A stretch of DNA of 21,905 bases from IMG/VR virus record IMGVR_UViG_3300036906_000050, positions 1 to 21,905 of that record; one strand, 5' to 3'. The translations under genes were made by a program, and so were the position numbers. The stretch comes from a virus. The notes below the pieces were generated by a model. The model had not been told where the DNA came from. It did not search any database and saw only the letters and a program-made list of their open reading frames with translations. Positions 397 through 18,429 of the stretch are shown one piece after another. The stretch's first letter is position 1, and the number at the start of each line of letters is the position of its first letter.

Positions 397-882
397 TCAT
401 GCCCCGTCGCGGGTCCGTACACTTACTGCCTGCTCGGTGCACAGCCGCTTTCCCGTGAATCCGCCAGCCGTCCTAGTGGATCGGCAACCTGGCAACTGCT
501 CGGGTGGTGAGATCCGCCCGCGTATTTCCTCCATGGACCCTTTCAGGTCAGAGAGGACTCGGCTCGCTGGCAGCCGGAGAATCGAGAATCCGCGCTCAAC
601 CATTACGCGGTCGCGGTAAGCGTCAACGCGCTGCTGGTGAGTGGTTTGGTGATATCCACCGTCCACTTCGATGATGAGTTTTCGGCAAGGGCAGTAGAAA
701 TCGGCAATCCAGCCAAGAATAATCACTTGGCGCTTGAACTTGATGCCCCATGGCCGAGAGCGTAGAAATGCCCATAGTTTGCGCTCCGAATCGGTCGGAT
801 GTTTTCGCATCTGGTCGCAAAAGGCGAGCTTCTTTCGGTATTTTGGGGAATGGCGCGCGTGAATCGAAGGTTTAACCGCCAC
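397..882 (-). CDS. DUF559 domain protein, putative Vsr-like PD-(D/E)XK endonuclease
   Basis: The protein carries the DUF559 signature in order: an N-terminal helix with MRKHPTDSERKLWAFLR, then the core strand WIADFYCP (Asp61), then LIIEVDGGYH (Glu72, Asp74, His78), a helix with Asp87 and Arg90, and the final strand GFSILRLPASRVL. These are the expected acidic active-site residues of the very-short-patch-repair-like nuclease fold. Typical family members are about 115-130 residues; this one is 161 from GTG 882 and has roughly 35 extra residues at the C-terminus. An upstream GTG at 924 would add 14 residues, but those codons lie inside a palindromic promoter-like region, so 882 is preferred. It is the only minus-strand gene in the window. 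Two sampled rows (661-780) are about 49% GC, below the flanking DNA, suggesting acquisition. The substrate is unknown; a host-borne or phage homing-type role is inference. Confidence 0.85.
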   Translation of the reverse strand: MAVKPSIHARHSPKYRKKLAFCDQMRKHPTDSERKLWAFLRSRPWGIKFKRQVIILGWIADFYCPCRKLIIEVDGGYHQTTHQQRVDAYRDRVMVERGFSILRLPASRVLSDLKGSMEEIRGRISPPEQLPGCRSTRTAGGFTGKRLCTEQAVSVRTRDGA

Positions 883-888
883 CCCATC

Positions 889-927
889 ATCATGCGCTTG
901 ACTGGGATGGCATGTCAAGCGCACAAT
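889..927. promoter_or_regulatory. Candidate overlapping divergent promoters on the palindrome
   Basis: Each arm of the inverted repeat contains a -35-like hexamer. On the plus strand TTGACT (898-903) is followed after 18 bases by CACAAT (922-927, 4 of 6 consensus). On the minus strand TTGACA (918-913) is followed after 18 bases by CATGAT (894-889, 4 of 6). Projected transcription starts, near 934 and 882, fall on the first base of an ATG and a GTG start codon respectively, symmetric about base 908. Both transcripts would then be leaderless. The -10 matches are modest, so this is a proposal rather than a proven promoter pair. Confidence 0.4.
893..923. repeat. 10-bp perfect inverted repeat between divergent genes
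   Basis: TGCGCTTGAC at 893-902 is exactly mirrored by GTCAAGCGCA at 914-923, with an 11-base centre. It sits between the minus-strand DUF559 gene and the first plus-strand gene of the micro-ORF chain. It could act as a regulator-binding operator, or as a hairpin in RNA; there is no T-tract, so it is not a typical terminator. Confidence 0.8.
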
Positions 928-5354: not shown

Positions 5355-5599
5355 ACGCCCGAGAGAAAGTCATCGAAGCCGAGCGCCAGATCCGGTGCCT
5401 GATCTCCGGAACGTCAAAGGAGATACAATGCCCGTTCTGCGGTGAGACTTCGACCTCCGGCCAGGAACTTCTCTGCTGTGAGAATCTGTGCAACGTAGTC
5501 AATGCGGTTCTGGATTACGTGGACACCAGGTCGAACCTGGAAGTGGTTGACCGCGTGATGGACCGGCTCGCTGGGCAGAGCCAGGCGGTGCTGAATTGA
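5351..5599 (+). CDS. Small zinc-ribbon-like protein (82 aa)
   Basis: The ATG at 5351 overlaps the preceding stop by four bases. The 82-residue product contains CPFCGE (Cys27, Cys30) and CCENLC (Cys42, Cys43, Cys47), spaced as in a small treble-clef or zinc-ribbon knuckle. Helical segments lie on either side: MNAREKVIEAERQIRCLI before it and VVNAVLDYVDTRSNLEVVDR after it. It probably binds one zinc ion. Its TGA overlaps the TTG start of the portal gene, so the two are translationally coupled. A role in DNA or protein binding during head assembly is a guess. Confidence 0.75.
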   Translation: MNAREKVIEAERQIRCLISGTSKEIQCPFCGETSTSGQELLCCENLCNVVNAVLDYVDTRSNLEVVDRVMDRLAGQSQAVLN

Positions 5600-7866
5600 C
5601 TCCCCAGCCAATGGATGAGCTTTTCAGCCCTCCGAACGAAGGCCAGGACTCAGAGCGCGAATCCCCAGACGATGTTTCGGCACCTCCGCGCCCACAGCCG
5701 AGAACCTACGGCGACGAAAACAAGGAACTCCCCGAGGAGCTTCAAAACGCCGGCCTTGCATTGCTGCAGGAAGCTCAGAGGCAGGAACTTTACCAGCGCC
5801 GAATGGAGGTAATGCGGGCGCGCCGGAACCGATTCTATGAACGCGGACTCCAGCACATATACTACGACATCCTGAGTGGAGTTTTCGTTCAAGGCGCTCC
5901 AGGTCAGTTCGTTCCCGATAGCGGACACGGCGAGATTCAGTGCGGCGAGTACATCGCGGATTACAACATCTTCGCGCGAGCGCTGCAAATCATCATCGCC
6001 AAGTTGACCGAGAACCAGCCTGGCATCGATTTCCAGCCCGACAGCGGTAATTCTCCGGTGGATCTTCAGGCTTCGGATGCGGCGGAGGCGTACCGGATTC
6101 TGTACGACCGCCGGAACGACACCAAGGATCTGCTGACGGCTATCACGCGCATGATGGGCCTCGACGGGCGCGTGGTCACGTGGACCCGCACCATGGCCAA
6201 CGAGCAAAAGTGGGGCACGGATGAGAACGGAGTGCCGCGCCGGGTGCAGACCACATCCGTGTATGGTGTACTCGAAACCAAGGTCCCCATCGTTGCACGG
6301 ACTTTCGAGGAGTGGCCGTACTGCATCATCACCGAAGATCCGCACGTCTACACCGCCAGAAAAGAGCATCCCGGCTTCGCGGACAAGATCGGAAAGTTCG
6401 GTGAGGAAGGCATAGCCGATACCCAGTTCGAGAGGCTGGCTCGATTGGGAGCTTTGCAGGGGAACTCTGCCGCGTTCCAACTCACTGACACATACGACCA
6501 CTACACCGAGCGCAAATACTTTTTCTTTCGCCCGTCCATGCTGACCGATGAGGAATTGGATTCGGCGTATATGGACGAAGTTCACCAAGCCGAAAGTTGG
6601 ACGCTTCGGGATGGGTTGAACGAAGCGTTTCCCGATGGCGGTGTGTTCATCTTCGTTGGGAAGCAATACGTCGGATCTCGTAACGTCTGCATCGACGATG
6701 AATTGAGCGTTGACTTCCCGTATGCTGGTGACGGCATGGCGCGCATGGCAGTTATGGACCCGGCTGTGGTCATCCAGGACCGTTTCAACGATGACATGAA
6801 CCTGTACGCCGAATGGAAGGACTTCGGTTCACCTTCGACATGGCTCCGCGCCGGTCGCGCCCAGGTTGCAGCCGTCAATGACCAGACCGCCGCGCCGTTC
6901 TGCTTCCGGCCGGCCATGGAACTTGAGGTTTTGCGTGACCGCCCTCTGGCCGACAGTTTCTACCGTGAACCGAACCCCGAACTTCCCGAAACGTTCATCC
7001 GGCATACCGAGTATTTGGCGACTGCCCTTTTGCAGTACATTCTGGCGATTCCCTCCGCAGTCCAGGGCGCCGGGATGCCCGACCAGAAGACCAAGGGCGG
7101 CTACCAGGAGGCCATCTATCAGGCCATGGGGCAGTTGGGTGTGATATGGGGAGCCGTCCAAAGGTTGATGTCGAAGGTCTACCGGCAGGCGGCACTTGCT
7201 GCGGCGCGCGATGATAAGGAAGGAAAGCCGCTCATCATCCCCGGCCCAAAGGGTGCTGTGACATTGGACATCTCCGCTCTTGGCAAAGGGCACTTCCTGG
7301 CCCATCCCGACACGGACAGCGGCTACCCCGAATCCACGATGCAGAAGCGGGTCACGTTGAGTGGCATCTTGGAAATGGCGATGAAAGACCCGGTAATTGG
7401 GCAGGCGCTTCTATCGTCTCCAGACACCTGGGATTTCATCTTCAGGACGTACGGGGTGCCAGAGATCGTGATTCCAGAGGCGCGAGTGCGGCGCAAGCAG
7501 TCCGCAGAGATCGAGATGCTGATTCAGCAAAGCCCACAGCAAGGGCCGCCCGATCCATTGACCGGGCTACCAGGCGCGATGGTTTCTTCCGTTCCTGTCG
7601 ACCCCCTGGACTATCACGATTGGGAATTCGAGGAGTGCCGCGAGAAACTGTCCGACTGGCCGTGGGTTCAGCAGCAGTTGACCGCCGGGAACGAAGCGGG
7701 TATTGAGAATATCCGGGCGCACGCCATGGAGCACCAAAAGTTCATGGCGCAGGCGGCCGCCGCGGCGCAAGCGGCAGCGATGGCGGCGCAACCAGCAGCG
7801 TCGGCACAGCCAGGAAAACCAGCCGGCGCGGAAGCCGAGCAACCAGCACAGGAGAACAATGCCTGA
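5596..7866 (+). CDS. Portal protein
   Basis: At 756 residues this is the size of large P22-type portal proteins, which form the dodecameric ring through which DNA enters and leaves the head. Supporting features are its place between terminase and scaffold/capsid genes, a Glu/Pro-rich N-terminus, the helical segment EYIADYNIFARALQIIIAKL with TENQPGIDF following, a long central region with many aromatic residues, and QGAGMPDQKTKGGYQEAIYQ, similar to the stem region of portals. An Ala/Gln-rich C-terminus follows from about residue 710. The start is TTG 5596, overlapping the previous stop as TTGA. ATG 5611 is an alternative without a better ribosome site. The family assignment rests on order, size and motif style, not on a database match. 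Confidence 0.8.
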   Translation: MTPQPMDELFSPPNEGQDSERESPDDVSAPPRPQPRTYGDENKELPEELQNAGLALLQEAQRQELYQRRMEVMRARRNRFYERGLQHIYYDILSGVFVQGAPGQFVPDSGHGEIQCGEYIADYNIFARALQIIIAKLTENQPGIDFQPDSGNSPVDLQASDAAEAYRILYDRRNDTKDLLTAITRMMGLDGRVVTWTRTMANEQKWGTDENGVPRRVQTTSVYGVLETKVPIVARTFEEWPYCIITEDPHVYTARKEHPGFADKIGKFGEEGIADTQFERLARLGALQGNSAAFQLTDTYDHYTERKYFFFRPSMLTDEELDSAYMDEVHQAESWTLRDGLNEAFPDGGVFIFVGKQYVGSRNVCIDDELSVDFPYAGDGMARMAVMDPAVVIQDRFNDDMNLYAEWKDFGSPSTWLRAGRAQVAAVNDQTAAPFCFRPAMELEVLRDRPLADSFYREPNPELPETFIRHTEYLATALLQYILAIPSAVQGAGMPDQKTKGGYQEAIYQAMGQLGVIWGAVQRLMSKVYRQAALAAARDDKEGKPLIIPGPKGAVTLDISALGKGHFLAHPDTDSGYPESTMQKRVTLSGILEMAMKDPVIGQALLSSPDTWDFIFRTYGVPEIVIPEARVRRKQSAEIEMLIQQSPQQGPPDPLTGLPGAMVSSVPVDPLDYHDWEFEECREKLSDWPWVQQQLTAGNEAGIENIRAHAMEHQKFMAQAAAAAQAAAMAAQPAASAQPGKPAGAEAEQPAQENNA

Positions 7867-9257: not shown

Positions 9258-10523
9258 ATGCCTGTTGGCAATCTCGCAGCCTCAATGGGGCTGCAAAAAG
9301 AGTATGTGGTTCCGAAGGTTGAAAAGCTGGCCCTTGCCAGTTCGCGCCTTTGGAAGCACATCAAACTGAACACGAAGATCAAGCCGGTTTCCAACCGGCC
9401 AACCAGAATCCCCTTACAGCCGCTCCAGTGGGGCAATTTCGCAGTCGCCAACCTCGACGGCGGCGCGTTCCCGCAGGGGTCCGGTCCCCAAGTAATCCCC
9501 GGCACGATTTCCTGCGTGTCCTTCGTTCACGCGGCCCAGTGGACCGCCCTGGCCGAGTACACCACGGACACCGACGAAAAGGCCGTTCAGGATTACGCCA
9601 CCCTCTTGACCAGCCAGCAAACCGAGATGATCGCCGGCTGCATGGATGCCCTTCTCCAGTCGGACGGCAGCAACACGCTGGACACCGTGGTTTCGGTTTC
9701 CGGAAACGTTCTGACCGTGAACAACCCGAACGCCTTCATGGACGGCCAGACGCTCGACTTCTACAACGGCCTGCTGGATGCCGGCGGGGTCTTCCTCGGC
9801 AGCGCAACCGTCCTGGGTGTGGACGCCATCAACGTAGCGATCACCCTGACCGGGGTGCCGCCGGCCGGAACCACAGGCGGGACCCGGATGCTGGTCAGCG
9901 GAAGTCCCGGCGTGAGCAATGCCGGACTCCTGGGACTGCGAGCCTACAACGTGGCCGGTAACACTGGCCTGTACATGAACATCCAGAAGTCGGCATACCC
10001 CGGAAAGTTCAACGTGCCGAACTTCAATGCCCCCGGCACCCTGACGCCTTCCCTGGTTCGCGCCATTGACGCGCTCATGGAGCTTTCGATGGGCGTGGAG
10101 AAGGCACAGGAAGCCGATCTCACCCCGCATTGCAATGTGGATATGGTGACGGCTTGGGAAAACCTCAGTCTGAACGTGCAGCGCGTGGACGTTACCCAGA
10201 TCCGCGGCGACGAGCAGCCCGACATGCTGAAGCGCCGGCGCCCGCGCACCATCGGTGGCCGCGAGGTCATCGTGAACGAACGCGCCCGGCCCGGCTACAT
10301 CGACTGGCTGGCCCTGGCCCACTGGTTCCAGGTGCAGTCCAAGGCCCTCTCGCTCTACGACGTGAAGGGGCAGGTGGTCTTTCCCGCCTACGGACCGGCG
10401 GGAACCATCGCGGCGAGCAACCTGATGTACCTGGTCATCATGCTCCAGTTTGCGAGCGTGCAACCGCGCCTCAATGCATATCTTTCCGGCGTGACCATTC
10501 CGCGTTATTTGTTCGGGCGTTAG
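9258..10523 (+). CDS. Major capsid protein
   Basis: The 421-residue product follows portal and scaffold-like genes and has its own leader and strong ribosome site (GAGAGGTG before ATG 9258), as expected for the most abundant head protein. Its composition is that of HK97-fold coat proteins. A basic N-terminal arm (KEYVVPKVEKLAL, then WKHIKLNTKIKP) is followed by the long segment AEYTTDTDEKAVQDYATLLT, forming a spine-helix candidate. The C-terminus is hydrophobic, with NLMYLVIMLQFASVQPRLNA. Residues about 142-212 form an inserted beta-rich segment (VVSVSGNVLTVNNPNAFMDG and onwards) placed like an I-domain or decoration insertion in other coat proteins. No prohead protease is visible. Confidence 0.85.
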   Translation: MPVGNLAASMGLQKEYVVPKVEKLALASSRLWKHIKLNTKIKPVSNRPTRIPLQPLQWGNFAVANLDGGAFPQGSGPQVIPGTISCVSFVHAAQWTALAEYTTDTDEKAVQDYATLLTSQQTEMIAGCMDALLQSDGSNTLDTVVSVSGNVLTVNNPNAFMDGQTLDFYNGLLDAGGVFLGSATVLGVDAINVAITLTGVPPAGTTGGTRMLVSGSPGVSNAGLLGLRAYNVAGNTGLYMNIQKSAYPGKFNVPNFNAPGTLTPSLVRAIDALMELSMGVEKAQEADLTPHCNVDMVTAWENLSLNVQRVDVTQIRGDEQPDMLKRRRPRTIGGREVIVNERARPGYIDWLALAHWFQVQSKALSLYDVKGQVVFPAYGPAGTIAASNLMYLVIMLQFASVQPRLNAYLSGVTIPRYLFGR

Positions 10524-10531
10524 GCTAAGTC

Positions 10532-11191
10532 ATGTCTTTTGAATACGATCCGGCAAGTTCATTGCGACACTGGCCCACGCCGATGGGCCGGTTTGGGAAG
10601 AATCCGTTTGGAGAAAACCTCTACCGGATCGTACTCACGGAGTCACGGCGGCATCTTGTTGGCGGCCTATGGCCTGACGGTGCGACGGGCTACCATTGGG
10701 TGCCCAAGTATCGTTCGGTCAAGGCCCCGTGGATTCTGGAGCGGTGGCGCTGGGAGATGCTTTCCAAGGCCAAGTGGGATGAGTTGGTGGACCCGGTATC
10801 CGGGTGGCCGCTATTCGGCCCGTACCCGACGCGGGGCGACTACGAGTTGGTCTGGGAGTTCGACGCCGGAGTGGATGCCGACAGTCTGGACAACATCATT
10901 GGGTTCGTCAATCGGCGCGATTCGTGGTCCTTCCAGGATCACCGGGATCGGGTGGCCGCCGAGTACCAGCAGGAAGAGAACGACATCCGCAACGCGGGGC
11001 GGGATGAGATTCGGGATTGCATGACCGCTTTCGGGGGTGCCCCAATCTCGTATGGCAGGTTCGGGAGAGGGACGAAGACGCAGCAGGACTTCGCCACCGC
11101 CCAAGACATGAACCTGCCAATTCCACGCGGCCGACCGCAGAACCTCAACGGCCTTGAAGTCACGAGTTCGATGTTTGCAGGGGGAGTTTGA
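10532..11191 (+). CDS. Hypothetical structural-module protein (219 aa)
   Basis: ATG 10532 lies eight bases after the capsid stop. The 219-residue protein is unusually rich in Trp, especially in the first 120 residues (SLRHWPTPMGRF, GYHWVPKYRSVKAPWILERW). A short charged helix (DHRDRVAAEYQQEENDIRNA) and a Gly/Arg-rich tail follow. Neither signal peptide nor membrane span is visible. A gene directly after the major capsid gene is often a head completion or decoration factor, but I recognise no family. The stop TGA (11189-11191) shares one base with the next ATG, so the two are coupled. Confidence 0.85.
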   Translation: MSFEYDPASSLRHWPTPMGRFGKNPFGENLYRIVLTESRRHLVGGLWPDGATGYHWVPKYRSVKAPWILERWRWEMLSKAKWDELVDPVSGWPLFGPYPTRGDYELVWEFDAGVDADSLDNIIGFVNRRDSWSFQDHRDRVAAEYQQEENDIRNAGRDEIRDCMTAFGGAPISYGRFGRGTKTQQDFATAQDMNLPIPRGRPQNLNGLEVTSSMFAGGV

Positions 11192-11958
11192 TGCCGATTA
11201 CAGCCCAAGAAGCCCAAGCGCTGCTCACGCAGGAGCAGCGCAAACTGAACCAGGGTCGCGTGTTGCCGCCGGTCCTAGATCGAATCCGCGTGCTGATGCG
11301 CGATGAGACGTTCCCGATTTGCAACGTGGGTCCGTGGGAGTACCGGGCGGAGCGGGGTTGTCTCTCGGTCTTCATCCCGGCTTACGACCCGGCGAAGGAC
11401 CCGGCCAAGTTGGGGTATGCCCGCAGTGAGCCGCTGGCGGTTATCCGGCGGGAAGCCAAGATCATCAACGAGGATGAATTCGGCTTCATTGAAGACGACG
11501 GGCACATGGTTGCCCAGGATCTCATTGGGATCGGCTGGGGGATGCACCCGCAGAACTCCCTGGTCCCGTTCGGGGTATTCGTGCCCGCCGGCAAGGAGCC
11601 GACGCCAGCGGAGATTGCCGCGGCGAAAGATCAGCTTTCGCTGTACTACGACCGGCTGATTGAAGAGGCTCGGGACGCCTACGACAAGGGGCCAGAGGCG
11701 CGGAAAAACACGATCACCGACCGGCACTTGACCGCAGCACGTATCAAAGGCATCGACGAAGCCTGGACCCGCCACCAGCACACTGAGGCGTCCGTGCGCT
11801 GCCAGATGTGCGGGAAGTTCAACCCGGCGGGGATCGCCAAGTGCGCTTGTGGTCAGATTCTCGACTTCGAGCTTTTTCAGAAGCTCCAGAAACAGCAGGA
11901 AGACATGCTGGAGAGGGCTACCAAACCGGCACCCGTTCAGCCGCCCGTAAAGAGATGA
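11191..11958 (+). CDS. Hypothetical protein with C-terminal zinc-ribbon-like knuckle (255 aa)
   Basis: ATG 11191 has the strong ribosome site GGGGGAG (11180-11186); a TTG three bases earlier is not preferred. Residues 1-130 are mixed, including PICNVGPWEYRAERGCLSVF and EDDGHMVAQDLIGIGWG, suggesting a beta-containing domain. A charged helical linker covers about 150-195. Residues 204-220 hold CQMCG (Cys204, Cys207) and CACG (Cys218, Cys220), a compact four-Cys zinc site. The last 35 residues are a coiled-coil-like, Gln/Lys-rich tail. The gene sits between head and connector genes. Zinc-binding proteins are uncommon at this point of a virion module, and no role is assigned. Confidence 0.85.
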   Translation: MPITAQEAQALLTQEQRKLNQGRVLPPVLDRIRVLMRDETFPICNVGPWEYRAERGCLSVFIPAYDPAKDPAKLGYARSEPLAVIRREAKIINEDEFGFIEDDGHMVAQDLIGIGWGMHPQNSLVPFGVFVPAGKEPTPAEIAAAKDQLSLYYDRLIEEARDAYDKGPEARKNTITDRHLTAARIKGIDEAWTRHQHTEASVRCQMCGKFNPAGIAKCACGQILDFELFQKLQKQQEDMLERATKPAPVQPPVKR

Positions 11959-11959
11959 A

Positions 11960-12787
11960 ATGCCTGTTGTCGCCCCAGTTCCGATGGCACCGTATGACAC
12001 GGTGGAAACCGCGCTACAGGTGGCGCGAGTTCGTCTGAACGATGCCATCGAGAGCATCCATGGCGACGTTATCACGGATACACAGCCTTTCACCCAAGTA
12101 GGAACGAATGCCGCTTGGCGTCGGATTCAGGAGTTTCTGGCGAACGCCGGATGTACTCGGTTTCATCAGGAAGCGGTGCTTTTCAGCATACCGGCCTGTG
12201 GAAACGCCGATTTGGTAGCGCAGGTGTGGCTGAACTGGACCCATTATTTTGACGGGTCGAACTACTTTTCGCCTCCAAACACCCCAGTTCTTCCTCAGAA
12301 CTTCATTTCGCCGTTGTCTCTTCAGGAGCGAATCTCTGGAACGACCGGGCAGTTCACCCCAATTGACCAAGTTCTCAAGGGGCTTCCACGAATCGGCCGA
12401 GTGCCCATCAATCGACTTTGGGAGTGGCGGGATGAGACGATTTACATGCCGGGAGCTACCGGGCCCACAGACATCATCGTGCGGTATCTGGGTTTCCTTC
12501 CCGACTTCGTTCAAACTGGCTCGACCGATTGGACCGCTCAACCCATTCCCATCATGCGGTGTTTGGACCCGCTTTCGTGGGCGATCTGCGCTGAATTCGC
12601 CAGAGCGCGCGGGGATCTTGACGCCGCATATTTCGACCAGGCGGCGCAGGCGTCCGCTCTAATGATTCTCGACCGCGACACTGCCTACCCGTCAGAACTT
12701 TTCAAGCAGACCGAACGTGGGAAGATGCCGGACCGCTTCACGCCAGCAGGACCGGCGCAACTGAAGAACCCGGCGGGAGCGAAGTAA
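11960..12787 (+). CDS. Connector/adaptor-like structural protein, paralogue 1 of 3
   Basis: This 275-residue protein is the first of three consecutive related genes. Landmarks shared by all three are an N-terminal PYD motif with a helix ending RLNDA or RLNGA, then NxAWR, a PVLPQ or PFLPS segment, WEWR, YMPGA or WMPGA, DxxIRY or DIIVRY, FLPDFV or similar, and QPIPIMRC followed by D and S. The conserved helices plus beta segments suggest a ring-forming head-to-tail connector or adaptor near the portal, in the place P22 has its tail accessory factors. That function is inferred from position only. The start is ATG 11960, one base after the previous stop. Confidence 0.8.
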   Translation: MPVVAPVPMAPYDTVETALQVARVRLNDAIESIHGDVITDTQPFTQVGTNAAWRRIQEFLANAGCTRFHQEAVLFSIPACGNADLVAQVWLNWTHYFDGSNYFSPPNTPVLPQNFISPLSLQERISGTTGQFTPIDQVLKGLPRIGRVPINRLWEWRDETIYMPGATGPTDIIVRYLGFLPDFVQTGSTDWTAQPIPIMRCLDPLSWAICAEFARARGDLDAAYFDQAAQASALMILDRDTAYPSELFKQTERGKMPDRFTPAGPAQLKNPAGAK

Positions 12788-12788
12788 T

Positions 12789-13601
12789 ATGCCAGCGACA
12801 ACACCTTACGATATTGTCTACGCCGCGATGCTTATGGCGAAAACGCGGCTTAATGACGCCATTTCAACGTTGACGCCCGTAGGCGGCCAATTGCTCGATA
12901 ATGCCCAAGCGTTCACTCAGCAGATTATGAACACCGCTTGGCGCCGGATGCTGGCATTTCTATCCGAGCGGAACTATTCTCGGCTGTTTCCTGAACTCCT
13001 GATTCCCTCTCTGCCGGTGGCGTCCACAAACGACCCAGCCTTGGAGGTTTCGCTTACCTGGACCGGGTACTTTGATGGCATTAACCAGTTCAACACCCCA
13101 GTTCTTCCGCAAGACCTCATTACGCCCGCGAAACTTTGGGAACGTGCGAGCGGCCAGACCCCGCCGGGTGGACTGTACGAGATGGACCGGGTTTTCAATG
13201 GCCTTCCACCGATTCCCAAGCAGTTTCGCAACTTCGTGTGGGAGTGGCGAGACGATGGGATCTACATGCCGGGAGCCACTGGGCCGACTGACCTGAAAAT
13301 CCGGTATGCGGCCTTTCTGCAGGATTTCGTGGACAACTCACCCACGGCTGCGACTCCATGGTTCCAGCAGCCCATCCCGATCATGCGCTGCCTCGACCCG
13401 CTTTCCTGCTATGCCTGCCATGAGATTGCCAAGGGCCGCAAAGACCTCGATGCGGCTGTTTTCTTGCAGGATGCCGAGGCCGCAGCAATGCTCATCGTGA
13501 ACCGCGACAGCGCGCAACCCAGGGCCATCCTGAAGCCTTCCGAGTACGGCAAGATGCGCGACCAGTATACCCCTGGAGGCCCGCCACCGCCCAAGGTGTA
13601 G
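12789..13601 (+). CDS. Connector/adaptor-like structural protein, paralogue 2 of 3
   Basis: This 270-residue protein is closest to paralogue 1, sharing RLNDAI, NTPVLPQ, IYMPGATGPTD, QPIPIMRCLDPLS and the D-L-D-A-A segment near the end. The coding DNA of the shared motifs differs at many silent positions, so the duplication is old or the copies diverged under separate constraints. The start is ATG 12789, one base after the upstream TAA, with GGGAG at 12775-12779. The C-terminus ends with a short Pro-rich tail (PGGPPPPKV). Retention of three full-length copies argues for three distinct virion roles, such as stacked rings, rather than redundancy. Confidence 0.8.
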   Translation: MPATTPYDIVYAAMLMAKTRLNDAISTLTPVGGQLLDNAQAFTQQIMNTAWRRMLAFLSERNYSRLFPELLIPSLPVASTNDPALEVSLTWTGYFDGINQFNTPVLPQDLITPAKLWERASGQTPPGGLYEMDRVFNGLPPIPKQFRNFVWEWRDDGIYMPGATGPTDLKIRYAAFLQDFVDNSPTAATPWFQQPIPIMRCLDPLSCYACHEIAKGRKDLDAAVFLQDAEAAAMLIVNRDSAQPRAILKPSEYGKMRDQYTPGGPPPPKV

Positions 13602-13604
13602 CCT

Positions 13605-14471
13605 ATGCCCGCCGCGCCCTACGATTCGCTGATGGTTGTCAGAAACACCGTACAGGCTCGCCTGAACGGTGCGCTGGACAGTCTTCAGCCGATCAGCGGG
13701 AAGATTTTGGAGAATTCCTCGTACTTCTCGCAGCAGGCGGTGAACAACGCTTGGCGAAACGCCCAGGACTATCTCGCGGAGCGTGGCTTTGCGGACCTAC
13801 TCAACGAAGCGGTAATTTCCGGCTTTCCGATAGTGGCATCGCTTGACCCCGCCACCCAAGTCCGGCTCGACTGGACAGGATGTTCAGACGGTGTGACCAG
13901 TTATACCACTCCGTTCCTGCCTTCGGAATGCACTCACCCACTGAAGATTTGGGAGCGGTGGAGCAACCAAAACGCTGAGTTTTCCCAGACGCCGATGGAA
14001 AAGATTCTCGACGGGCTACCGGCGTGGCAAAAGGCGATGGCAAACCGCTGCTGGGAGTGGCGGAACAATGCGATTTGGATGCCCGGCGCGCTGATGGTTG
14101 AGGACTTCAGAATCCGGTACGTCAAGTACCTGCCGGATTTTGTGGACAACTTCGCCGGAAAAACCTTTGACGAGATGCCCGGAACCTTCGATGAGACAAG
14201 CGGAACATTTGACGAGGCGGGAGGAACTCTGGTTCGTGTTCATTGGTTCGAGCAACCTGTCCCCATCATGCGGTGCTCGGACGGATTCTCGTGGTTCATC
14301 TGCGCCGAATTCGCGGAGGCGCAGGGTAAAGTGGAAGTCGCAGATCGGTTCCTCCAGAGGGGGAAGGATGCCTTTGGCAGAATCTTCAATCTGGACGCGG
14401 CCGCGGATCAGCGAGTGAACATCCGGCGCCGGCCGCACAGCGGGCGAGGGAACGGAAGATCATACTATTAG
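13605..14471 (+). CDS. Connector/adaptor-like structural protein, paralogue 3 of 3
   Basis: This 288-residue protein is the most divergent of the three. It keeps PYDSL, RLNGAL, NNAWR, WEWRNNAIWMPGA, DFRIRYVKYLPDFVDN and QPVPIMRC, but loses the LDPLS that follows in the others (SDGFSW instead). It alone has an insertion at about residues 185-206 made of three repeats around TFDE. The C-terminus is strongly basic (RRRPHSGRGNGRSYY), unlike the Pro/Lys tails of the other two, and could contact DNA or an acidic partner. The start is ATG 13605, three bases after the previous stop. Confidence 0.8.
   Translation: MPAAPYDSLMVVRNTVQARLNGALDSLQPISGKILENSSYFSQQAVNNAWRNAQDYLAERGFADLLNEAVISGFPIVASLDPATQVRLDWTGCSDGVTSYTTPFLPSECTHPLKIWERWSNQNAEFSQTPMEKILDGLPAWQKAMANRCWEWRNNAIWMPGALMVEDFRIRYVKYLPDFVDNFAGKTFDEMPGTFDETSGTFDEAGGTLVRVHWFEQPVPIMRCSDGFSWFICAEFAEAQGKVEVADRFLQRGKDAFGRIFNLDAAADQRVNIRRRPHSGRGNGRSYY
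14157..14222 (+). repeat. Three in-frame TFDE repeats in paralogue 3
   Basis: Codons 185-206 of the third connector paralogue read GKTFDEMP, GTFDETS, GTFDEAG: units of 24, 21 and 21 bases. The other two paralogues lack this segment, so it is a lineage-specific insertion just before the QPVPIMRC motif. Confidence 0.8.
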
Positions 14472-14871: not shown

Positions 14872-17800
14872 TTGGCCTTCAACGTATCCGGCGGCGTGGA
14901 AGTGCCGCTCAATACTTTCGGATCGCTTGTCACGGAGACGGCCCCGGAGCAATTGCCCGAGGGCGTGTCTCCCGACAATCAGGACGTGGTGTATGCCCCC
15001 GGCCAAGTAGCAAGTCGCCCTGGACTCCACAAGGTTCTGGAGACCCCACTGGCCGCCGGCGACCCAAACAACCTCGTACCGACCCTGACGAACGGCGGGA
15101 GTTTCGTTGACCCGACAGGGACGCTGCGGAACGTGTATTTCGACTCGAACGGTATGATCTGGGTGGAAACGACGCTCGGGACGCTGGTTGCGGTTTCCAC
15201 ACCTTCCACGCCCGGATGCTGGATGAAGTCAATAACCGCCTTTGGCCGCCAGTACGTCGCCATCAGCGACGGCTTGCATGGGCAGGAAGTGCCGCTCCAA
15301 TTCGATGGCACAAACTGGGACCGGGTGACTCAGGACGGCCCCGGCGCCCCGCCCACAGTCGCATCTGTGGCGCTTCCTCCCGTTCTACTGGTAGGCAGCG
15401 GATCGGCAAGTCTGACACCCTACGAGGTTCAGCCGGGAGCACAAAACCCCGATGGTTCCTATTCGCAGATTCTCGCCTTCACCAGTAGCGCGTGGCCGCT
15501 GGCAATTGGTCCGGGCGATTCTCTCACACTCGCGGGATACACCGGAACGAATGACTCGAACTACAACGGCACGTTCACGGTGTTGGCGACGTATCAGGGC
15601 AGCACGAATCTGCTGGTCCTCGGAGCGTACCTCCCGGCTGGAACGGCATACAGTGCGGTGACTGCGGGGATCACTTGGAGCGCGGTTACGGGGAGTTTGG
15701 TTCGATCTAGCAATACGGTTACGGCCACCACAGCGAAGGCGCATCAACTCCAAGTCGGATACGAAGCACAGATCGCAGGAGTCGGGGCGGCGGAGGTGGG
15801 CGGCGGGATTTCCTCAATTGTCATTGACAACGAGGATCTGCCGGGATTGGCAACGGTGACTACCGCTTCGAAGCATGGGCTTGTGCCCGGATGTCAAGTC
15901 ATTCTCGCGGGCGTTCAGCCGGTCGCGGTTGGCGGCGCGATCACGGCGGCATCGTGGGCCGGTGGAATTGCTGAGATCACCACCACCAGCGCACATGGTC
16001 TAACGCCGGGTTGCCAAGTGACCGTAGCAGGCACCGGAGCGGGGGGCGTGAACGGAACTTTCTCTGTTCTCACCGTTCCTTCACCAACCACATTCACTTA
16101 CGTCTTCACTCCGATAGCTACGGTTACGATTTCTCTGAGCGGTCCCACTGTTACGCTCGTTTGGCCTATTCCAGACAGCAGCGCACCCACCTACTTCGAG
16201 GTCGTCGCTACTCCGACACCTACGAGCTTTCAGGTAGAAGTGACGTACTCTGACGGCACTTGGACGACTGGTACAGTCTCGTTCGCTTGGAATGGGACGT
16301 TCTTCGTCGCCTCGGTTCCTTCGGCAACATCGTTCACATACCAACAGTACGGACCAAACGCCACTTCGTCATCCACAACAGGGACCGTGACACCTTACGG
16401 TCAAGCGGCCCCTGGAGTTCACCAGTGCCAAGTTCATTTCCTGACACGCCAGGGATACACCACCCGTCCCAGCCCGCCGGTTCAATTCGTGGCAAATGGC
16501 GGCCAGTTCGTGAGTGTGTCCGGCATACCGATAGGGCCTCCCAATGTTGTTGCGCGTATCCTGGCTTTCACCGGAGCGCAGGGAGCCTATTTCTTCTACA
16601 TTCCCGTGCCAGCGCTGGTGAACGGCCAGCAGGTTTCGACAGCAACGCAGATCAATGACAACACAACGACCGCCGTTCTGCTCGACTTCTCCGACGTGAC
16701 ACTCTACTCCTCGTTGGGCGTCTCGATCCCAGGGAACAATCTCGCCAGCCAGATCATTCTCGACGGAGCTTTGGGATTCGGATTCTATGGTTCCCGCCTT
16801 CTGGCTTACGGCCAGCGGAACAAAATTCAGAACCTATTGAACATGGGATTCGAGGGCGGCGCTTTGCCAACGAGCTCCACCGCGCCGACTGGTTGGACGT
16901 TGGCAGGTACGGCAGTATTGGCAGCGGGGCACTTCGGGGAGGGACTGAGCATATCGCCCAGCTCCTCAATCTCACAGTCAGTATACCTCGACGCCTACCA
17001 GGGCGCTCCGATTCTACAGCCGAATACCGCCTACAAGTTTCGCGCATGGCTCAAACCAAGTACCGCCGGTCTGACCGTAACCGTCACAGTCAGTTCCATT
17101 CTGGGAACCTTTTCCAGCAGCATTTCATTCTCAACCGGAATGAGCACCAGTGGTTCATGGCTGGAGGCAACTTTCGCTACGAAGACTCCGAGCGCGATCC
17201 CGAGCGACATGCTTTTGACGATTGCTGTAGCCGGTTCCGCGGGGACGGTTCTGGTTGATGAATGCAGCCTAATCTATGCCGATTCTCCTTACGCCGATCA
17301 AATGATGTTCGCCAGCTACATAGACAACCCGGAAGCGTTCGACGGAGTTTCCGGCAAGTTTGGGCCATCCGAAGACGTTCACAAGGCCATGGACTTTGCC
17401 ATTGTGCGGGACAACCTGTACATCCTGACCCAAGACCCGGCGGGGCGCCTGCACGAGACCAGCGACAACGGAACGACGGAACCGTCCGGTTGGACCGTGC
17501 GCGAGATCGGAGCCAACTGCGGAGCGCTGTCGGCGTTCTGCACGGCGCATTCCCAGGCCGACGATGCGAGCGCAGGCGGCGGCGAAGAGTGGTTTGCGTG
17601 GGCGAGCGCGAGCGGTGCGCGGATTTTCGGCGGGGACCAGCCTTACAAGATAAATCAGGAACTCGCGCCGGATTGGGCGAATATCAACCCGGCAGCAGCA
17701 TTGACCATCTGGGCGCTGAACGATCCGGTTTCCAGGACGCTATATTTCGGCCTTCCGATGGGAAGCGCAACCGCAGCGAGTCTAGTCCACCCGATGAGTT

Positions 17801-18429
17801 ACCGGCAACTGGACAGCCCAGCCCAGATTGCCGCATCGCCGCCGATTCACGTCTCGTATACCGGGCGGTTGATCGCCACGGACAACACCAGAAAGTGGAC
17901 GCGCTGGAACCTGCCTATCAACGGAGCCGCACTGATGTATCGCGCTCCCGGAGTCCTCTCGGTCGTATTCTTCGGTGGCAACGGGCAGGCACCTGGCGCC
18001 GCGGCTGGATTCGGCAACGCCTACAGCCTGGACCCGACGAAGTTGACGGATGACGATTACGGCCAGATTGTCCCGTACTACACCACATACTTTTTCGTGG
18101 GCCACGACAATGAGAGGATGTTGAAACTGGACTCACACCGGAAGATGCTGGCCTATCTCACAGCGGCGATTCGAGGAACCGGGACGCTGACTATCACGGT
18201 ATTTTCGAACTCCCTGACAAACCCTTGGGCGATCACCGGGGTGCGCCCGCTGGCTGCCACCCCGAACAATGACCTCGGATGGGCCGGCGGTTCGGCCACG
18301 GCGGAGCGCATTGCAATCAAGATCGCCAGTGCGCCGCTGCCAGGACAGACGGATAACGGTTTCCTGCTTACCAAACTGGTGCCCACGTTGCGGCCGGCCG
18401 CGAGACTGCCGGTAAGGGGCGCGCCATGA
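14872..18429 (+). CDS. Large beta-rich tail protein with repeats and jelly-roll insertion (1185 aa)
   Basis: The start is TTG 14872, supported by a textbook AAGGAGG (14860-14866) five bases upstream. The N-terminus (NTFGSLVTETAPEQLPEGVS, then PDNQDVVYAPGQVASRPGL) is the typical opening of short-tailed phage tail nozzle or stabilisation proteins of the P22 gp10 / T7 gp12 kind, which are beta-propeller-like. Residues about 284-412 contain three related repeats with an H(G)L-xxG-xxV-x-AG core. Residues about 656-802 look like a carbohydrate-binding jelly-roll (FEGGALPTS, then PNTAYKFRAWLKPS, and VDECSL). The C-terminal third (about 805-1185) returns to propeller-like sequence (SGARIFGGDQPYKINQEL). 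It is far larger than the roughly 470-800 residues usual for such proteins because of these insertions. The exact tail role is inference. Confidence 0.75.
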   Translation: MAFNVSGGVEVPLNTFGSLVTETAPEQLPEGVSPDNQDVVYAPGQVASRPGLHKVLETPLAAGDPNNLVPTLTNGGSFVDPTGTLRNVYFDSNGMIWVETTLGTLVAVSTPSTPGCWMKSITAFGRQYVAISDGLHGQEVPLQFDGTNWDRVTQDGPGAPPTVASVALPPVLLVGSGSASLTPYEVQPGAQNPDGSYSQILAFTSSAWPLAIGPGDSLTLAGYTGTNDSNYNGTFTVLATYQGSTNLLVLGAYLPAGTAYSAVTAGITWSAVTGSLVRSSNTVTATTAKAHQLQVGYEAQIAGVGAAEVGGGISSIVIDNEDLPGLATVTTASKHGLVPGCQVILAGVQPVAVGGAITAASWAGGIAEITTTSAHGLTPGCQVTVAGTGAGGVNGTFSVLTVPSPTTFTYVFTPIATVTISLSGPTVTLVWPIPDSSAPTYFEVVATPTPTSFQVEVTYSDGTWTTGTVSFAWNGTFFVASVPSATSFTYQQYGPNATSSSTTGTVTPYGQAAPGVHQCQVHFLTRQGYTTRPSPPVQFVANGGQFVSVSGIPIGPPNVVARILAFTGAQGAYFFYIPVPALVNGQQVSTATQINDNTTTAVLLDFSDVTLYSSLGVSIPGNNLASQIILDGALGFGFYGSRLLAYGQRNKIQNLLNMGFEGGALPTSSTAPTGWTLAGTAVLAAGHFGEGLSISPSSSISQSVYLDAYQGAPILQPNTAYKFRAWLKPSTAGLTVTVTVSSILGTFSSSISFSTGMSTSGSWLEATFATKTPSAIPSDMLLTIAVAGSAGTVLVDECSLIYADSPYADQMMFASYIDNPEAFDGVSGKFGPSEDVHKAMDFAIVRDNLYILTQDPAGRLHETSDNGTTEPSGWTVREIGANCGALSAFCTAHSQADDASAGGGEEWFAWASASGARIFGGDQPYKINQELAPDWANINPAAALTIWALNDPVSRTLYFGLPMGSATAASLVHPMSYRQLDSPAQIAASPPIHVSYTGRLIATDNTRKWTRWNLPINGAALMYRAPGVLSVVFFGGNGQAPGAAAGFGNAYSLDPTKLTDDDYGQIVPYYTTYFFVGHDNERMLKLDSHRKMLAYLTAAIRGTGTLTITVFSNSLTNPWAITGVRPLAATPNNDLGWAGGSATAERIAIKIASAPLPGQTDNGFLLTKLVPTLRPAARLPVRGAP

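Follow-up and report, generated by a model that had tools for sequence, protein, structure and literature searches.

The 21,905-base IMG/VR virus record analyzed here, referred to throughout as the window, belongs to an uncultured short-tailed phage and carries three adjacent genes for paralogous proteins that are predicted to be portal-tail adaptors of podoviruses. These proteins probably form three stacked rings, with one paralogue per ring, in the order portal, copy C, copy B, copy A and nozzle. The case for this arrangement comes from sequence features that single-copy relatives combine in one protein and that the window's copies share out, with the last copy retaining one and the first copy the other.

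All three genes lie head to tail on the plus strand, with only 1-3 nt from each stop to the next start. Copy A (11960..12787, 275 aa), copy B (12789..13601, 270 aa) and copy C (13605..14471, 288 aa) are predicted to make the nozzle-side, middle and portal-side rings, respectively. In pairwise BLASTP comparisons they are homologous from end to end, with full-length identities of 49% (E 3e-85), 36% (E 2e-52) and 37% (E 2e-63). An earlier sequence-only reading of this DNA had described three adjacent full-length related genes at 11960-14471 and proposed pairwise alignment as a check. Both the genes and their relationship are confirmed by these comparisons, and the motifs which it quoted are present in the same order in A, B and C. 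Other metagenomes have yielded contigs with the same set of three genes (L007, L008 and L009, and L006 in truncated form), thereby ruling out an assembly artefact as the source of the triplication. Between the window and L008, dN/dS is 0.09, 0.04 and 0.07 for the first, second and third copies, indicating that all three proteins are maintained, with purifying selection acting on each.

Copy C was modeled by AlphaFold from a 73-sequence alignment (pLDDT 89.1, pTM 0.82), and the model has helices at residues 9-23 and 40-59, followed by a beta block, two further helices (225-239 and 243-269) and an unstructured tail. It displays the helix bundle, the beta dock domain and the C-terminal embracing element by which the adaptor fold is recognized. 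A Foldseek search of the PDB with this model recovered ten matches with E<1e-3, all of which are podovirus portal-tail structures, including those of Pa223, Moo19, B2, VP1, GP4, SU10 (7z47_B), crAss001 and KHP30; the match to T7 gp11 was weak (E 0.42). Additionally, L093, a distant relative with the same gene order, matched the Pfam family PF24175 (SU10_adaptor) slightly below the curated cut-off (E 1.3e-5, 26.1 bits versus 27); the window copies themselves gave no match to PF24175 in the Pfam scan. Based on the fold matches of copy C and the near-threshold PF24175 match of L093, we call the family portal-tail adaptors of the SU10/T7 gp11 type, with copies A and B being assigned this predicted fold by homology to C only. 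The predicted fold of copy C also lends support to the description of these genes in the sequence-only reading as connector-like and structural. Neither PHROG nor Pfam gave a significant match to A, B or C, the alignment of adaptors recovered only chance matches to Huntingtin when PDB sequences were searched, and tblastn searches of phage records with the adaptor, major capsid protein (MCP), nozzle and L093 proteins recovered nothing.

Certain members of the family show inserts. In copy C, a 21-bp in-frame tandem repeat of 2.6 copies (window 14162-14216) encodes the insert TFDE-GTFDE-GTFDE, which is modeled as a low-confidence loop (residues ~186-212) and is not found in copy C of L008. The single adaptor of L023 (L023:10007-11002) has a beta-rich insert of ~70 aa at the same loop, with weak likeness to a nozzle segment (BLASTP E 0.005) and to the phrog_584 major tail protein (E 0.0012). 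The first adaptor copy of L040 (L040:7308-8186) has an insert of ~40 aa that follows the WER motif within the beta domain.

The genes of the window are arranged in the order TerL, presumed portal, MCP, a 219-aa protein, a 256-aa protein, A, B, C, a 126-aa protein and presumed nozzle. The presumed portal (5596..7866, plus strand, 756 aa) is so named from its position and size only, and has no family match. The MCP (9258..10523, plus strand) matches phrog_14242, a major head protein family (E 2e-5). The presumed hexameric nozzle is a single-copy gene (14872..18429, plus strand, 1185 aa), which is suggested by its position after the adaptor in relatives, its size and weak PHROG matches to virion-structural families; its AlphaFold model is poor (pLDDT 47) and a PDB sequence search with it gave no confirmation. 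In relatives with both flanks present, the adaptor gene likewise lies between the capsid gene and the inferred nozzle gene. PHROG and Pfam scans of most neighbours gave family matches for TerL, a DUF559 protein and, weakly, the MCP and the nozzle, and otherwise none that were significant.

Scans with the nozzle, MCP and adaptor recovered ~70 distinct IMG/VR viral contigs as relatives of the window, and the adaptor occurs among them in one, two or three copies. A single adaptor is found in most of these (48 loci and about ten more). Three separate genes are present in the window, L007, L008, L009, L021, L031, L059, L080 and L061, and two in L040, L068 and L137. Fusions are also seen: L015, L076, L077 and L129 have two domains in one ORF, and L011 has three domains in one ORF of 778 aa. 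In L061 the three genes share one frame, with nothing between them but a stop and the start that follows it; in-frame junctions between copies occur at some other loci as well. When the fused protein of L011 was aligned together with the separate copies, all copies fell onto its third domain.

Structures of known adaptors suggest what the divided features might do. In T7 gp11 an acidic alpha1-alpha2 loop contacts the nozzle gp12 and a C-terminal embracing helix grips the portal (PMC6702177), and in SU10 a C-terminal embracing loop is wedged between the portal clips (PMC9509320). We scored 11 multi-copy lineages against a profile of single-copy adaptors, reading the interfaces by fold-level analogy at ~10% identity. 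The C-terminal tail is single-like in the last copy only, in all 11 lineages. Conversely, the first copy has the most single-like N-terminal alpha1-alpha2 hairpin in 11 of 11, with a near-tie in L011 (1.45 versus 1.44), and in every one of the 11 its H3-H4 loop is closer to that of singles than is the H3-H4 loop of the last copy. Most of these lineages go back to a single ancestral split and do not count as independent cases.

The tail of nearly every single-copy adaptor and of every last copy is basic, with the pattern KQR..RR..SGR.., whereas the first and middle copies have a different tail, which is of the form K.SE.GKM.D..TP in most separate genes. In the window, copy C ends in the basic single-copy-type tail QRVNIRRRPHSGRGNGRSYY (14400..14468, plus strand), a putative portal grip by analogy with the embracing elements of SU10 and T7. 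Copies A and B end in tails of the FKQTERGKMPDRFTP type (12701..12784, plus strand) and the LKPSEYGKMRDQYTP type (13530..13598, plus strand), respectively, the former being common to A and B and not seen in single-copy adaptors. Tail net charge is +6.7 in singles and +4.4 in C, as against +2.0 and +2.4 in A and B. The alpha1-alpha2 loop is 17 residues long in 37 of 41 single-copy adaptors, in all separate-gene first copies and in domain 1 of L011; in later copies it has 20 residues if the genes are separate and 16-17 in fused domains. The first domains of the fused doubles break this rule with a loop of 25 aa. In copy A of the window the loop DAIESIHGDVITDTQPF (12041..12091, plus strand) is 17 aa long and acidic, and its single-like length and charge, along with the analogy to T7 gp11, make it a putative nozzle contact. 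The corresponding loops of copy B (12855..12914, plus strand) and copy C (13668..13727, plus strand) are both 20 aa long (+3), that of C being nearly neutral. The mean net charge of the loop is -2.7 in singles, -3.4 in A, -0.8 in B and -0.4 in C; it is near -3 for singles and for the majority of first copies, and near -1 or 0 for the majority of later ones. L137, which came to light once the rule had been framed, conforms to it: its first copy has a loop of 17 residues with a charge of -4 and a GKM tail, and its second copy has a loop of 20 residues with a charge of -1 and a weakly basic tail of the single-copy type. Thus, the portal-gripping and nozzle-gripping jobs seem to be split between the last and first copies, respectively.

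These features can be accommodated in one scenario. An adaptor forming a single ring has to perform two jobs, using its C-terminal tail to grip the portal and its alpha1-alpha2 loop to seat the nozzle. Once the gene had been duplicated, the portal tail would have been kept by the last copy and the nozzle loop by the first, while the tails of A and B, altered alike, would grip the adaptor ring above. The mutual similarity of the A and B tails would follow if the partner of each is an adaptor ring and not the portal. By analogy, each ring would be a dodecamer and the outcome a longer tail barrel, with the fused paralogues of some relatives fixing a 1:1 or 1:1:1 ratio. A chain fused from A to C would be compatible with such a stack if the tail of one domain lies at the face with the N-terminus of the next.

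The phylogeny of the adaptors suggests that the copies are old. All multi-copy domains fall on one side of a branch with moderate support (85/80), within which the domains sort according to their place in the array: first copies (100/99), second copies of three-gene phages (98/92) and all upstream copies together (99/96), with the last copies forming a looser group. Topologies that make the three copies of one phage each other's sisters were rejected by the AU test for the window group (p 1.6e-4), L059 (p 1.6e-4), L021 (p 2e-6) and L011 (p 0.03). As the copies cluster by position and not by phage, they constitute an old paralogous set. Their adjacent, tandem disposition might in itself suggest a recent neutral amplification, or a dosage effect of one adaptor gene, devoid of structural meaning. 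However, the positional clustering, the AU tests, the low dN/dS and the divergence of the copies (at most 51% identical) make this extremely improbable, and recent amplification within lineages is rejected in those with separate genes (AU p <=2e-4, together with the positional clustering). There is also suggestive evidence (p 0.019 and 0.039) that the third copy of L011 may have arisen separately from that of the window. On a tree of the MCP and nozzle the multi-copy phages do not form one clade (AU p 2.8e-5, using a simpler model instead of a mixture model), and hence copy losses or exchange of the adaptor module must be added to this history. Four phages with a single copy, L023, L063, L071 and L085, lie among the multi-copy phages on the MCP and nozzle tree, and are candidates for such loss or exchange.

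The sequence-only reading had offered two architectures for the three proteins, stacked rings and a mixed ring with broken symmetry. In the latter, A, B and C would alternate in one 12-subunit ring as (ABC)4, or as (AB)6 in two-copy phages, and the fused forms would produce pseudo-symmetric rings of four or six chains. Each of the copy numbers 1, 2 and 3 is a divisor of 12, the equal numbers enforced by the fusions are compatible with one ring, and neighbouring adaptors of SU10 are already quasi-equivalent (PMC9509320). Yet in such a ring all copies would meet both the portal and the nozzle, whereas the tail and loop elements are split; moreover, the four-fold (ABC)4 is a misfit to a six-fold nozzle, and no such case was found in the limited literature searched. 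As the portal-side and nozzle-side elements are divided between the last and first copies, stacked rings are the better supported of the two suggestions; the mixed ring finds no support in this division and we regard it as unlikely. Similarly doubtful is the particular proposal that four chains of the 778-aa L011 protein form one 12-position ring and that the three-gene relatives form (ABC)4 hetero-rings; were it true, a four-fold pseudo-symmetric ring would have a twelve-fold portal on one side and a six-fold nozzle on the other.

A further alternative is that C alone is a true adaptor, with A and B having moved to roles in fibre docking, in a collar or as assembly factors. This would account for the tail being single-like in C alone and for the beta domain also being best preserved in C in most lineages, and the beta domain of the adaptor is indeed the fibre dock in T7 and SU10 (PMC6702177, PMC9509320). 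Nevertheless, it is copy A which best retains the helical hairpin and the nozzle-type loop, both A and B retain the core motifs under strong constraint, and all domains are held together in the fused chains, which leaves this alternative with a slim chance.

A stack of paralogous adaptor rings has been documented in crAss001, and crassviruses are inferred to share it; beyond these we found no other case in the limited literature searched. The tail barrel of crAss001 has five stacked dodecameric rings (R1-R5) made from four paralogous adaptor-fold proteins, gp43, gp40, gp35 and gp34, and its authors noted that other podoviruses had been observed with one ring only (PMC10172136). Hence, the design was already known, contrary to the suggestion in the sequence-only reading that it might be undescribed. 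Like the window, crAss001 has several paralogues of the adaptor fold in one phage and one muzzle or nozzle gene downstream of the final ring gene. In crAss001 gp34 of the muzzle-end rings is encoded first and gp43 of the portal-end ring last, followed by the muzzle gp44, the muzzle-binding segment being residues 15-26 of the last ring protein (PMC10172136). This gene order, from the muzzle end to the portal end, is the one predicted for the window group. In contrast, the crAss001 paralogues are mostly 15-19% identical (31% in the most similar pair) and spread across 10 genes, whereas those of the window are adjacent and 36-49% identical, and the window group additionally has single-copy relatives and natural fusions. 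Adaptor and nozzle profiles gave no match to the crAss001 ring proteins and muzzle gp44, and tblastn searches with the MCP and nozzle against 50,697 phage records, including crAss001, were also negative. The window's phage group thus appears to lie outside Crassvirales, with no detectable sequence kinship in the capsid, nozzle or ring proteins. As for the single-ring systems, SU10 gp11 has the fold seen in the copy C model (7z47_B) and T7 gp11 (tail tubular protein A) and P22 gp4 likewise combine a helix bundle with a C-terminal portal-gripping element, but SU10 makes do with a single adaptor gene and a single ring (PMC9509320), and T7 and P22 have one adaptor copy each, against three in the window. 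T7 gp11 showed no detectable sequence similarity to the adaptor profile, and T7 gp12 did not match the nozzle profile.

What appears to be new here is a second, unrelated phage group with a series of one, two and three copies, including fusions, in which the division of interfaces can be read. Stacking in this group would show a short-tailed phage lengthening its tail by duplication of a two-faced adaptor and division of its two interfaces, and predicts that the length of the tail barrel rises with copy number. Judging from crAss001, whose five rings span ~23 nm (PMC10172136), each additional ring should add ~4.6 nm. The natural fused chains would fix ring stoichiometry and could be useful for structural work on symmetry transitions.

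With regard to the wider affinities of the phage, two scans of genome contigs turned up neither a host nor a prophage, and its TerL is nearest to those of unannotated faecal phages and of Roseobacter CRP and HMO-2011 phages (~25%). The 256-aa gene between the MCP and adaptor genes (window 11188-11958; L010:6552-7364; L011:6836-7567) is conserved, and its product, which has no family match in PHROG or Pfam, ends in a cysteine-rich, zinc-finger-like motif. Upstream of TerL, the opposite strand encodes a nuclease-like DUF559 protein (window 397-924, minus strand, E 5.5e-25).
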